This document shows positions 2,784 to 8,070 of a stretch of DNA of 45,081 bases, piece after piece. The stretch is taken from NCBI GenBank assembly GCA_003228875.1, contig QIGK01000145.1, positions 1 to 45,081 on the forward strand, in the 5' to 3' direction. The notes under the pieces were generated by a model. It did no database searches, was not told the origin of the DNA, and saw only the letters and a program-made list of their open reading frames with translations. Source of the stretch: Rhodobacterales bacterium. Its GTDB lineage: Bacteria; Pseudomonadota; Alphaproteobacteria; Rhodobacterales; Rhodobacteraceae. A program made the translations under genes and the position numbers. Each line of letters opens with the position of its first letter. Within the stretch, counting starts at the first letter, position 1.

Positions 2784-4643
2784 CTAACGTGCCAAACTGA
2801 ATTTTCTTTTTCGCGCGTCAGCCTCAAAAAGCGACGCGAGCTGTTCGGTCATAGCGCCCGCCAGTTGTTCGACATCGGTGATGGTCACGGCACGTTCATA
2901 ATACCTTGTGACGTCATGGCCAATGCCAATCGCGATCAGTTCGACCATTTTACGGCTCTCGACCATATCAATCACATCGCGCAGGTGTTTTTCCAGAAAT
3001 GAAGCAGGGTTAACCGACAATGTGCTGTCATCGACCGGCGCGCCATCCGATATTACCATCATAATCTTGCGTGCCTCGCTGCGCCGCAGCATGCGCCGAT
3101 AGGCCCATTCTAGCGCCTCGCCGTCGATGTTTTCCTTTAACAAGCCTTCTTTCATCATCAAGCCCAGATTGGGCCGCGCCCGTCGCCACGGGGTGTCGGC
3201 TGATTTATAGATGATGTGGCGTAAGTCGTTTAACCGGCCGGGGGTAGCAGGGCGTTCAGCTGCAAGCCACGCCTCGCGCGATTGCCCGCCTTTCCATGCC
3301 CGGGTGGTAAAGCCCAGAATTTCGACCTTAACCTGACAGCGTTCCAGCGTGCGGGCCAGAACATCTGCGCAGATCGCGGCAATTGAAATGGGCCGCCCAC
3401 GCATAGAGCCTGAATTGTCAATCAGCAGCGTCACAACTGTGTCGCGGAACTCGGTTTCGGATTCCTGTTTGAACGATAATGGCGTTGTCGGGTTGGCGAC
3501 CACACGGGCCAGCCTTGCGGCATCCAGAATGCCTTCTTCCAGATCGAACTCCCAATGGCGGTTTTGCTGGGCTTGCAACCGGCGTTGTAACTTGTTGGCC
3601 AGCCGCCCGACTGCGGCCTTTAGCGGTTCAAGCTGTTGATCAAGATAAGCGCGCAAGCGTTCCAGTTCTGCGGGGTCAGCCAATTCAGTGGCACTGATTT
3701 CCTCATCATGTTCAGCCGTAAAAACCGTGTAATTTGGGTCAGCATCCGAAAAGGGCGGCGGAGGCAGCTGGTCATCCGGCGGGTTGCCCTCTGCCATATC
3801 TGTTTCGTCCGACATATCTGCATCGGGGCTGTCATCAAGCGATGCCTGCGCCTGTTGTTGATCCATGCTTTCGTCTTGATCTTCGGGCGGTTGGTCTTGA
3901 TCGTCCGAGCTTTCATCCTCGTCGCCGCCCTCTTGATCTTCGCTATCGTCGCCGTCTTCCTCGGCCGCTTCGTCTTCTTGATCGGGGTCTTCCAGATCGG
4001 GGTCGTCGCCCAGCTGGTCGCCATAGCCAAGATCGGTGATGATTTGGCGCGACAGTCGTGCAAATGCGGTTTGATCGTCAAGGTTGCCAAGAATTTCACC
4101 AAGCGTTTCGTTGGCTTTTCCCAAAACATCACGACGTAAATCCACAATATTTTGTGCATCGCTTGGCAAATCGCGCCCCGTTGCCAAATGGCACAGCAAA
4201 TACCCCGCAGCGGTCGCCAATGGCGCGTCAGCCGCGTTTTTGATGGCACCAAAGCCTGATTTCTGCGCCTCGGCGCTGATTTTGGCGTCTATGTTTTTTG
4301 CAGTGCCGGGCAGTGCGCGCGCGCCCAAAGCCTCACAACGCGCGGTTTCAAGGGCCTCATACAGCCCCACCGCGATCTCGCCCTGTGGCGAATATTTGTT
4401 ATGCGTTGCGTCATTATGGAACCGTAATTTCATCGCATAAGCATCCGCTGCGCCCCTCGCCAACAGAATTTCCTGCGTGGTCATGCGCCGTGTGACCTGC
4501 GGCAAGCGCACTGTGTCGCCGCTGATGCCCGAGGGATCAACCGTAAAGGTGACATTCAAATCGCTGTCATTGGCAAGGGTTTTGGTCGCCTCAGCCAGCG
4601 CTTTTTTGAACGGGTCGGCGGGGTTGTCGTTGGGTTTGGTCAT
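2784..4643 (-). CDS. cobT: CobT, VWA-domain subunit of the cobaltochelatase chaperone complex
   Basis: CobT works with the AAA+ ATPase CobS as the chaperone pair that lets CobN insert Co2+ into hydrogenobyrinic acid a,c-diamide in aerobic cobalamin synthesis. The 619-residue product has an all-alpha N-terminal region (1-210), a very acidic D/E/Q-rich linker (about 212-290), and a C-terminal von Willebrand A domain whose MIDAS motif is [11 protein letters not shown] (DxSxS at 409-413). The length matches the family. I chose the ATG at 4643 ([10 protein letters not shown]) over the in-frame one at 4679 because GAGAAAG precedes it and the longer N-terminus ([10 protein letters not shown]) looks like untranslated sequence. 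cobT is the last gene of a J-domain, cobS, cobT series. The other cob genes, including cobN, are not in this window. Confidence 0.92.
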
Positions 4644-4772
4644 GTCAACTTTCTCGCCCGGCTTGCCCGGGCAGCGCACGAACCTCCCCCGTCGTGCCGG
4701 AGGCGCGCTTCCAGCGTGACGGGAGAGCGCTTCTCGCCCACCCCGAGGTTCGCGCGATGCCCTATGTTATTG

Positions 4773-5750
4773 CTAGCCAAGGCTCACACTCACCGCGCTT
4801 TCCGGCAGTTCCTCGTCAAAGCAACGCTGGTAAAACTCCGCCACGGTTTGGCGTTCCAGCTCGTCGCATTTATTCAAAAACGTCAGACGAAAGGCAAAGC
4901 CGACATCGCGGAAAATCTCGGCGTTTTGCGCCCATGTGATACAGGTGCGCGGTGACATCACCGTGGAAATATCACCGTTCATAAATGCGGTGCGGGTCAG
5001 ATCGGCCACCGTCACCATTTGCGAGACAATCTTGCGGCCATCGTCGGTGTTGTAATGCGGGGCTTTGCCGAGCACGATCATGGTTTCCGCGTCGTGTGAC
5101 AGATAATTCAACGTAGAAACAATCGACCAGCGGTCCATCTGGGCCTGATTGATCTGCTGTACGCCGTGATACAATCCGGTTGTGTCGCCAAGGCCAACCG
5201 TATTGGCAGTAGCAAACAAACGGAAACTTGGATGCGGGGTCAGGATTTTATTTTGATCAAGCAGGGTCAGCTTACCATCGGTTTCCAACACCCGCTGGAT
5301 CACAAACATAACATCAGGCCGCCCCGCGTCATATTCATCAAACACAATCGCGCAAGCGTTGCTAAGCGCCCAAGGCAGGATGCCCTCTTGAAATTCGGTC
5401 ACCTGCACACCGTCGCGCAGCTTGATGGCGTCTTTGCCAATCAGGTCAATCCGGCTGATATGGCTGTCCAAGTTCACCCGCACGGTGGGCCAGTTCAGAT
5501 GCGCCGCGACTTGTTCAATGTGGGTGGATTTCCCCGTGCCGTGATAGCCTTGGATGATCACCCGGCGATTATAGCCAAAACCGGCCAGAATGGCGCGGGT
5601 TGTGTTCGGGTCAAATTTGTAAGTTGGATCAATTTCCGGCACCCGATCCATACCCTTTGGAAAAGCTTTGACACGCATATCACTTTCAAAACCAAACGCG
5701 GCGCGGATGTCGAAATCTTCGGTTGGCAGTTGGAGTTGGTCACGCGACAT
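4773..5750 (-). CDS. cobS: CobS, AAA+ ATPase subunit of the cobaltochelatase chaperone complex
   Basis: MoxR-like AAA+ ATPase that forms a ring with CobT and drives cobalt chelation by CobN. In the 325-residue product the Walker A motif is GYHGTGKST (68-76) and Walker B is AIVFDEYD (D138, E139); downstream [21 protein letters not shown] carries the sensor 1 region with an arginine-rich C-terminal lid. I chose the start [16 protein letters not shown] at 5750 because AGGAAA lies 6-8 bases before it, whereas the upstream ATGs at 5771 and 5792 lack a ribosome site. The gap to cobT is 129 bases and holds nothing recognisable. Upstream lies the J-domain gene with a 67-base gap, so the three are probably co-transcribed. 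Confidence 0.93.
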
Positions 5751-5817
5751 TATCAATTTCCTATCATTCATTTCGGGCAAGTTGTGGAGCATTTAAAGGG
5801 CGGGTGCAAGCCAGCGT

Positions 5818-6474
5818 TTAGTCACTAAACACTCGGCTGACTTTAACCTGTTCCCATGCCCAGACCACTTCGGTCAGCTTTTCTTCGTCGTCGCGCCGCC
5901 CGCCATTCAGGTCGGGATGCAGGTCTTTGACCAAAGCTTTGTAAACTTTGCGCAATTCGGATTTTGACATCGTGTTGGGCGAACCAAGAATATCCAGCGC
6001 TTTGCGCTCGGTCGGGGGCAATCGGCGGGCATTACTGGCGGTATTGGGGTTGCTGGCAGGGTTCATGGTTGCGTTGCTGCCAAGAACCTCGTGCGGATCG
6101 TCAAACCCAAAACGCTTCCATGCTTCTGCCTCGGGATTACTTGGGGTTTTGGGCTTTTCTTTGCCAAAGGGTTTGGTTGGGCGACCCCAAGTTTTGTCGG
6201 ATTCGTCTTGCTGGTCGGGCGTTACATGCACTTGCCCGTCAAAAAAATTCCACGTCCGGTTATGTTCGCGAATATGATCAAGGCAAAACCAGATGAAATT
6301 TTCCAGATCATCGGCAGATTTTGGTGCGCGGTATTTGCCGGGCAACATGCAGCCCTCTTTTTGACATTCGCGCGACGAGGTTTCCACCGCCCCCGACATA
6401 CCACGCTTTTTGGATCGGCGCTTTTTGTCGGCGCCAACCGATATATCAAAATTTAAAGGCGAGCGCTTGCGCAT
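5818..6474 (-). CDS. J-domain protein encoded with cobS-cobT
   Basis: A 218-residue protein whose J-domain is at the C-terminus (about 155-218), unlike DnaJ itself. The essential HPD tripeptide is present in VKDLHPDLNGG (186-188). The N-terminal two thirds contain a conserved-looking segment with C37, C42 and C63 (SRECQKEGC, IWFCLDHIREHN) and a W-rich stretch, typical of the J-domain family found beside cobS in alphaproteobacteria. J-domains stimulate Hsp70 (DnaK) ATPase, so the protein probably recruits DnaK to a specific client; a role in assembling CobS-CobT is a guess from context. The start is supported by AGAGGATT upstream. It is divergent from bolA with 96 bases between the two starts. 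Confidence 0.85.
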   Translation of the reverse strand: MRKRSPLNFDISVGADKKRRSKKRGMSGAVETSSRECQKEGCMLPGKYRAPKSADDLENFIWFCLDHIREHNRTWNFFDGQVHVTPDQQDESDKTWGRPTKPFGKEKPKTPSNPEAEAWKRFGFDDPHEVLGSNATMNPASNPNTASNARRLPPTERKALDILGSPNTMSKSELRKVYKALVKDLHPDLNGGRRDDEEKLTEVVWAWEQVKVSRVFSD

Positions 6475-6570
6475 TCAGCAGAATCCTCTTACCAGTTTTG
6501 ACAATTGCGGAACACAGCATAGGGGCAATCTGGCAAACGCCAACCCCTTAAACACAAAAAGGTTCAGAAA

Positions 6571-6876
6571 ATGACATATGCAGAACGTATGGAAACCAAG
6601 CTGGTTGCGGCTTTTGCGCCAACCCATCTGGAAATCATTGACGAAAGCGAAGACCATCGCGGCCATGGTGGCTATCGCGAAGGTGGTGAGACCCATTTTA
6701 AGGTTTGTATCAAGGCTGAAGTTTTTAACAACATGAGCCGCATTGCACGGCAGCGCGCTGTGATGACCGCTGTGAAGCAAGAGCTGGACGAGCGGGTGCA
6801 TGCATTGGCGCTAGTGGTCTCGGGCACCGAAATAAATCAAGCCCGAGACCATAAGTCAAAAATTAAGAACGCTTAA
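6571..6876 (+). CDS. bolA: BolA family protein with a C-terminal extension
   Basis: BolA proteins partner monothiol glutaredoxins in handling [2Fe-2S] clusters and affect cell shape and stress responses. The 101-residue product shows the family core: HLEIIDESEDHRGH, YREGGETHFKVCI, then NNMSRIARQRAV and HALALVVSGTE. The usual protein stops right after the GTx triplet; here translation continues for 14 more residues (INQ to KNA). Those codons are exactly the sequence of a perfect inverted repeat (6816-6850), so the tail is probably translated terminator rather than domain. The gene overlaps the last 14 bases of the convergent GlsB-type gene. It is divergent from the J-domain/cobS/cobT series, a frequent alphaproteobacterial arrangement. 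Confidence 0.93.
   Translation: MTYAERMETKLVAAFAPTHLEIIDESEDHRGHGGYREGGETHFKVCIKAEVFNNMSRIARQRAVMTAVKQELDERVHALALVVSGTEINQARDHKSKIKNA
6816..6850. terminator. Perfect 10-bp inverted repeat inside the bolA 3' end
   Basis: GGTCTCGGGC (6816-6825) pairs with GCCCGAGACC (6841-6850) around a 15-base AT-rich loop; a further T-A pair extends it to 11 bp. It lies where the convergent bolA and GlsB-type genes end, so it could stop transcription from both sides. The right side continues with ATAAGTCAAAAATTAAG and lacks a clean T-run, so it may act as a bidirectional or Rho-assisted terminator. It lies inside the open reading frame of bolA. Confidence 0.6.
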
Positions 6877-7129
6877 CGAATTTGAGGATGAAAAGTGCGA
6901 CAGAAGCACCGACCAAAGCAAAAATGACCGAATTGAGCACAACCCCGATAATACCGCTGCCGAAATAAATGCCAACCCTTGGTAAAATCTGGCCGAGAAC
7001 AAGGGCGCCTACGGCACCAACAACCATATTTCCGGTTGAGCCTAGACCGTAATCTGGCTTTTTCGTTGTTAAGAACCAGCCGATTGCGGCCCCGACAGCT
7101 GCGGTGATTAGGTATGCAAGAATAACCAT
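6863..7129 (-). CDS. GlsB/YeaQ/YmgE family membrane protein (transglycosylase-associated)
   Basis: An 88-residue, glycine-rich integral membrane protein with three predicted helices: VILAYLITAAVGAAIGWFL near the start, NMVVGAVGALVLGQILP in the middle and a third before FILKFVKRS. The small-residue spacing (GxxxG-like) and the N-terminal AAVGAAIGWF motif are typical of the family, which is often induced by stress; its molecular role is unsettled. The start follows an AAGGAAAC ribosome site 5 bases upstream. Its 3' end overlaps the bolA tail by 14 bases on the other strand. The gene sits between a working bolA and a broken bolA copy. Confidence 0.88.
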   Translation of the reverse strand: MVILAYLITAAVGAAIGWFLTTKKPDYGLGSTGNMVVGAVGALVLGQILPRVGIYFGSGIIGVVLNSVIFALVGASVALFILKFVKRS

Positions 7130-7221
7130 AGATGTTTCCTTTTTATATCAATAGGAGTTTAGGTGAAAATACTTTTAATAAATACATTATTAGACAGCGA
7201 GGTCCTATCAGATCATAGCAG

Positions 7222-7439
7222 GGGTGGCTACAACTTATTTCTCAAGGTGAAAGCGAAGCCCGCACTAAGCATCGCCATTATCGCGAGGGGGGTGAGACAC
7301 ATTTTAGGTGATGATCACCGCTGCTGCTTTTAACGACATGACCCGAGTTGCCCGGCAACGGGCCGTTATGCAACTGTTAAAAGCCGAAATGGATGAGCAG
7401 GTTCATGCTTTAACGATGGTGGTTACAGGCACCAAATAA
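7222..7439 (+). pseudogene. Truncated, frameshifted second copy of bolA
   Basis: Two adjacent reading frames match BolA end to end. In frame 1, bases 7228-7305 give LQLISQGESEARTKHRHY followed by REGGETHF, aligning with LEIIDESEDHRGHGGYREGGETHF of the intact gene. In the next frame, from 7310, the sequence reads MITAAAFNDMTRVARQRAV and continues to HALTMVVTGTK with TAA at 7437-7439. Adding one A after TTTT at about 7305 (giving THF-KV-MITAAAF) restores one continuous frame; the intact gene reads TTTTAAGG here and this copy TTTTAGG. The first 20 or so codons including a start are missing, with an in-frame TAG at 7216. It is therefore an eroded duplicate rather than only a sequencing slip. It ends 1 base before the stop of the DUF4177 gene. 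Confidence 0.85.
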
Positions 7440-7440
7440 T

Positions 7441-8070
7441 TCAATTGCGTTTTGCGGGGCCTAGAATAGGCGCGTCAACCGAGGCGCCTGTATTGGTATT
7501 GGAATGGTCATAATTCAAAGTTCGCTTTTCGTGGTTCAATTCAGCAAGTACGCTACTGTCGGTCATTCCCAATGTCGGGGCTGGCGCAGGACCGGGGAAA
7601 CGCAAAGAATCGGATGTGTCAATCTCAGGCTTTTTTGGAAATGGATCATCATTTGATTGTTCAGGAACATAAGTCGGCATTGGCTCTGGAAAAGGTTCGG
7701 ATACTACAGTCATTACCGGTTCCGGTTCTGGTGCCATAACCGGCATTACAGCCGCAGCGGGGGCGACGGCCTGAACAACGGTGCGCGCCCGTTGGTTTCG
7801 CATATCTTCGAGCTTTTGGTCCAGCGGCACCGCATCGGTTGCAATGTTGCGTTTGAAAACCAGATAGGTCAGCTCGGTGGTTATGGGTTTTTTCATCAAG
7901 CCTTGTTTGTCGTCAACCGAAAAAGATTCTTGCCCGACAAATTCCCAGCCGTTTTTTGCTTCGGTATTTAATGCCTCGGTCAACGCATGGGCAAACCGTT
8001 CGGGAACGGCTTTTAGGCCTTTGGCTTTTTTGCTGGCGGCTGGCGTTGGCAGCAGGCGATATTCAAACAT
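7441..8070 (-). CDS. DUF4177 domain protein with a Pro/Glu-rich linker
   Basis: A 209-residue cytoplasmic protein. The N-terminal 75 residues (MFEYRLLPTPAASKK to TELTYLVFKRNI) fit the DUF4177 fold: a YR-x-L-P strand, a long helix containing ALTEALNTEAKNGWEFVG and a YLVFKR strand. The middle is Pro/Glu/Val/Met-rich and probably unstructured (about 108-150), and the C-terminal 60 residues are low complexity. No catalytic motif is visible. AAGGAAA precedes the ATG by 5 bases. Small DUF4177 proteins usually lack such a tail, so the linker may tether the domain to a partner. The gene is tail to tail with the bolA remnant. Confidence 0.75.
   Translation of the reverse strand: MFEYRLLPTPAASKKAKGLKAVPERFAHALTEALNTEAKNGWEFVGQESFSVDDKQGLMKKPITTELTYLVFKRNIATDAVPLDQKLEDMRNQRARTVVQAVAPAAAVMPVMAPEPEPVMTVVSEPFPEPMPTYVPEQSNDDPFPKKPEIDTSDSLRFPGPAPAPTLGMTDSSVLAELNHEKRTLNYDHSNTNTGASVDAPILGPAKRN

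Follow-up and report, generated by a model that had tools for sequence, protein, structure and literature searches.

Xenologous replacement, that is gene displacement in which the resident copy decays, is a general process. The locus described here is like it in that two homologues flank what is probably newly arrived DNA, one being intact and the other decaying, and differs from it in that the direction of replacement is not proven. Both homologues fall in the BolA family (PF01722), to which the IbaG/YrbA-type paralogue also belongs, a type whose gene is paired with that of a monothiol glutaredoxin. A literature search on the phrase 'bolA pseudogene' found nothing, and a broader search, by title, found nothing on such a relic. 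The case we present is very likely that of a dead second bolA, which would have been parted from the intact copy when a glsB-type gene arrived, in the ancestor of the genome under study (G000) and its sister (G010).

The window, i.e. the whole stretch of 45,081 nucleotides that we analysed, lies on contig 4 of a draft genome of 2.6 Mb in 146 contigs. This genome probably belongs to the Rhodobacteraceae, as the two named relatives retrieved with its BolA are from an uncultured Amylibacter and a Rhodobacteraceae bacterium. Its genes run in the order cobT, cobS, a dnaJ-like gene (all three on the minus strand), bolA (plus), a glsB-type gene (minus), the remnant (plus), a gene for 209 amino acids (minus) and gatB. 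The names cobT, cobS, gatB and glsB are presumptive, while DnaJ, BolA and the Transgly_assoc domain of glsB were assigned by Pfam. The features around the remnant are as follows.

5818-6474, minus strand: gene of a DnaJ-domain protein (Pfam DnaJ, 32.1 bits), which stands 5' of bolA as a conserved neighbour and was found in all 13 genomes of the genus
6571-6876, plus strand: intact bolA, 101 amino acids, an open frame (Pfam BolA, 84.7 bits), its last 14 bases shared with the 3' end of glsB
6863-7129, minus strand: gene of a glsB/yeaQ-type small membrane protein, between the bolA copies (PF04226, 26.2 bits, cut-off 25.3)
7130-7224, no strand: spacer, 5' of glsB and of the remnant, with no recognisable bolA 5' end left
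7225-7308, plus strand: first piece of the bolA remnant, 28 codons, lacking a start codon and with a stop at the end
7308-7439, plus strand: second piece of the bolA remnant, 43 codons and a stop, its register shifted by one base against the first piece
7441-8070, minus strand: gene for 209 amino acids, the usual 3' neighbour of genus bolA, with no Pfam match

The remnant encodes the C-terminal three quarters of a BolA-type protein at 7225-7436, across two overlapping frames. Translation of 7225-7308 gives WLQLISQGESEARTKHRHYREGGETHFR followed by a stop, that of 7308-7436 gives VMITAAAFNDMTRVARQRAVMQLLKAEMDEQVHALTMVVTGTK before the stop codon at 7437-7439, and the frame is broken at about 7308 by a one-base offset in register. 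In a whole-genome search with Pfam BolA on the raw DNA, the remnant alone scored 47.4 bits (5.3e-12), and when read through with an X at the break it reached 57.2 bits, above the cut-off of 25.7, hence its match to the family is far beyond chance. It covers profile positions 16-71 of 76. On the intact BolA the match starts around residue 19-20, so that the first 18 or so codons are absent, and no start codon leading into the first frame was found upstream. The preliminary description had reported a broken second bolA in two frames that lacks its N-terminal part and flanks, together with the intact gene, a GlsB-type gene, and on all these points it holds.

The remnant sits in the chromosomal neighbourhood of genus bolA, and differs from a family member in its absent start, its missing first codons and its broken frame, which make it a pseudogene; it has no full-length open frame with a start codon. 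Because the start and the 5' end are gone and the frames are offset by one base, it is a relic and not a working BolA, and for want of a 5' end, a start codon and an upstream region it cannot be translated as one. Disabling lesions are accompanied by erosion at the same place in a relative, as described below. Neither the remnant nor the intact copy is the enterobacterial BolA equivalog, since they score 27.4 and 59 bits, respectively, against NF008638 (E. coli-type BolA), whose cut-off is 137. The intact bolA presumably performs the work of BolA.

The genome holds three BolA matches, namely the intact gene, the remnant and a gene for 80 amino acids on contig 107. The last adjoins a gene for a 121-residue protein, which by its CGFS motif we take to be a monothiol glutaredoxin, and we regard it as the IbaG-type gene of this genome on account of this neighbour. 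The remnant has no such linkage but lies in the dnaJ-bolA neighbourhood; by this neighbourhood and by the separate gene on contig 107, it is of the BolA type and not, on these grounds, of the IbaG type.

As a draft genome of 146 contigs and an offset of a single base are involved, it might be asked whether an intact second gene only appears broken because of faulty sequencing or of a metagenome assembly that is chimeric. An intact gene at the same place in a related strain, which the preliminary description had named as the refuting observation, was not what we found: the separately assembled sister G010 has the same order, i.e. dnaJ, bolA, glsB, a residue and the 209-residue gene, and its stretch from glsB to the last gene aligns with the remnant along its length. 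The local score of remnant against residue is 67, while shuffled sequences gave 29.2 +/- 5.1 with a maximum of 51.5, none of 1000 reaching the observed value. Against intact bolA genes of the genus the residue scores 74 (G008), 59.5 (G006) and 58.5 (G009), with reverse-strand controls at 42 or less; the two intact copies nearby give only 33 and 36, and G007 gives 37, no better than background. By eye, it keeps a LLK-EM stretch like the remnant, where both intact copies have AVK/AVR-QEL. The counterpart of the second frame is destroyed there and no open frame is kept. By this alignment the relic is common to both genomes, predates their split and is more eroded in G010. With the same order and a worse-eroded residue in an independent genome, and with the start codon and some 18 codons missing besides the offset base, an artefact is rejected, and we give it almost no credence.

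The second frame stays open over 43 codons, has a possible GTG start and keeps the BolA core, and one may thus imagine a working small protein, or two frames joined by programmed frameshifting. Such readings are extremely improbable: the frame has no open counterpart in G010, the 3' piece of bolA in G007 spans the place of the break in one frame, and the first frame has no start codon. Since the start codon is missing, the frame is broken and G010 conserves no open frame, the remnant is not likely to be functional, judged from its sequence.

The distribution of these genes was compared in 13 genomes of the genus, G000 included. All 13 have a BolA match, three being found in G000 only, two in ten others and one in two; each of the 12 other genomes has at most one BolA-type and at most one IbaG-type match. 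A relative of the 209-residue gene lies near bolA, downstream of it, in 10 of the 12 other loci read, G010 among them, and was not seen in the G004 and G009 loci. G010 is the only one of the 12 in which glsB and a residue stand between bolA and that relative. The glsB-type gene occurs in two of the 13 genomes, G000 and G010, and the second bolA copy was seen only in the same two. In the family, a glsB relative is present in 20 of 149 sampled genomes, the window's own included; outside the window's genome there are 20 matches in 19 genomes, all 48% identical or less. As it is present in just two of the 13 and its closest relatives in the family sample are less than 50% identical, the glsB-type gene was probably acquired.

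A plasmid or phage source of glsB was rejected: no match was found in plasmids, and of 22 stretches on viral contigs that were candidates none was confirmed as a relative. A donor within the family was set aside as well, given the low identities of its matches and given that no bolA match was seen in the flanks (at most about 1.5 kb per side) of any of the 20 family loci. The glsB-type gene lies at 6863-7129 in the window and at 1766-2029 in locus L009.

Since the second copy occurs only in genomes bearing glsB, a local event connected with glsB takes fewer steps than an old paralogue lost elsewhere. The arrival of glsB, in one event or in linked events, would have parted the second bolA from the intact copy in the common ancestor of the G000 species and G010, and the second copy would have been eroding ever since, slowly in G000 and much further in G010. 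We infer a joint arrival of glsB and the second copy, and a frame break later than the loss of the 5' end. On its sequence the remnant would be a pseudogene of the ordinary kind, connected with the acquisition of glsB, and a case of ordinary gene turnover.

As to which copy is the native one, the trees give a hint. In a tree of CobS, DnaJ and GatB, G000 groups with G010 and then with G007, apart from other members (SH-aLRT 99 and 99). In the BolA protein tree, the remnant is joined with the bolA of G007 (93/89, not starred), while the intact copies of G000 and G010 stand among other genus members (87/82). The residues that the remnant has in common with G007 only, and the LLK-EM stretch in the residue of G010, point the same way. 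All this is what one would expect of a remnant that is the resident gene and of an intact bolA that arrived together with glsB. The incoming pair of bolA and glsB, from a different lineage in the genus or from near it, would have recombined by homology into the resident bolA, leaving two copies that flank the insert; the incoming bolA would have taken the place behind dnaJ, and the ancestral one would be dying at two stages of decay. We regard this origin as a serious possibility, somewhat short of probable. The preliminary description took the intact copy as the reference, and the protein tree hints that the broken copy may be the original one, without settling the matter. Against displacement, the position of the remnant is unsure because of its long branch (1.32), remnant and G007 are joined at only 37/35 in the DNA tree, and the residue of G010 scores best against the bolA of G008 and at background against that of G007. 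Over the same 67 protein columns the remnant shares 43 identical residues with G007, 43 with G009 and 40 with the intact copy, and G007 came first or equal first in only 790 of 2000 resamples; at the DNA level the identities are 66.7% (G009), 66.2% (G011) and 65.7% (G007). No alternative was rejected by AU tests (p 0.098 to 0.42); for a grouping of G007 with the intact copies of G000 and G010, p was 0.098 and 0.175. What is more, the bolA of G007 is split over two contigs that break inside the gene with an overlap of 11 bases, so a second copy there is possible. The choice of the native copy is thus weakly supported.

The same uncertain long branch leaves room for a simple tandem duplication: in the ancestor of G000 and G010 the resident bolA would have doubled and glsB would have inserted between the two, while the 3' copy, having lost its 5' end, diverged fast for lack of constraint. 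The two-copy arrangement is confined to these two genomes, and a clade of remnant and intact copy was not rejected (protein p 0.281, DNA p 0.297). However, the remnant has three residues exclusively in common with G007, one each with G004 and G009, and none with the intact copy or G010; and at the C-terminus remnant and intact copy agree at 25 of 41 positions, against 32 of 41 for the intact copies of G000 and G010. We hold this origin to be doubtful, if possible.

An older duplication, or a paralogue now in decay, had been proposed in the preliminary description. That a bolA copy is decaying, and that it is not marked as a recent duplicate, stands; that it was a distinct functional paralogue is less likely, with at most one BolA-type match in each of the 12 other genomes. 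Two distinct BolA paralogues that predate the diversification of the genus, and of which one or the other was lost in separate lineages, would be in keeping with copies that differ at about 40% of their amino acids, and the protein tree also fits hidden paralogy with reciprocal loss. At most one BolA-type match in each of 12 genomes would however demand many independent losses, glsB is confined to two genomes, and the only BolA-type gene found in G007 adjoins the same 3' neighbour; we think it an unlikely history.

For the function of BolA nothing changes, and the relic mainly records a past local rearrangement. It does show turnover of bolA, the locus of which is stable in the rest of the genus, and calls for caution, as vertical inheritance may not hold for the intact bolA of the G000 and G010 species. 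The same relic at two stages of decay in sister species is also a small natural example of pseudogene erosion.

Some further observations were made at the locus. The GC content from bolA to the remnant is 45-51%, slightly low across glsB and the remnant, which is not telling. Within 6400-7600 there are two promoter-like matches, against 1.6 in shuffles, and four terminator-like sites, all on the minus strand, against 1.8 +/- 1.4 expected; besides the bolA pair the repeats are short ones only. The intact bolA carries a C-terminal extension of about 15 residues (6829-6876), which reaches into glsB, on the opposite strand, at the 3' end of the latter; the extension in G010 is shorter and different, and the 11 other members stop at about residue 86-87. 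Only the N-terminal 100 or so residues of the 209-residue gene product (7441-8070) align in several genus members. The remnant as a query matched 335 of 394 family genomes, some with two matches. G009 has two full-length gatB genes, at 4472-5974 of its contig C7 and 2897-4399 of C233, 86% and 84% identical to that of the window, and is perhaps a mixed bin.
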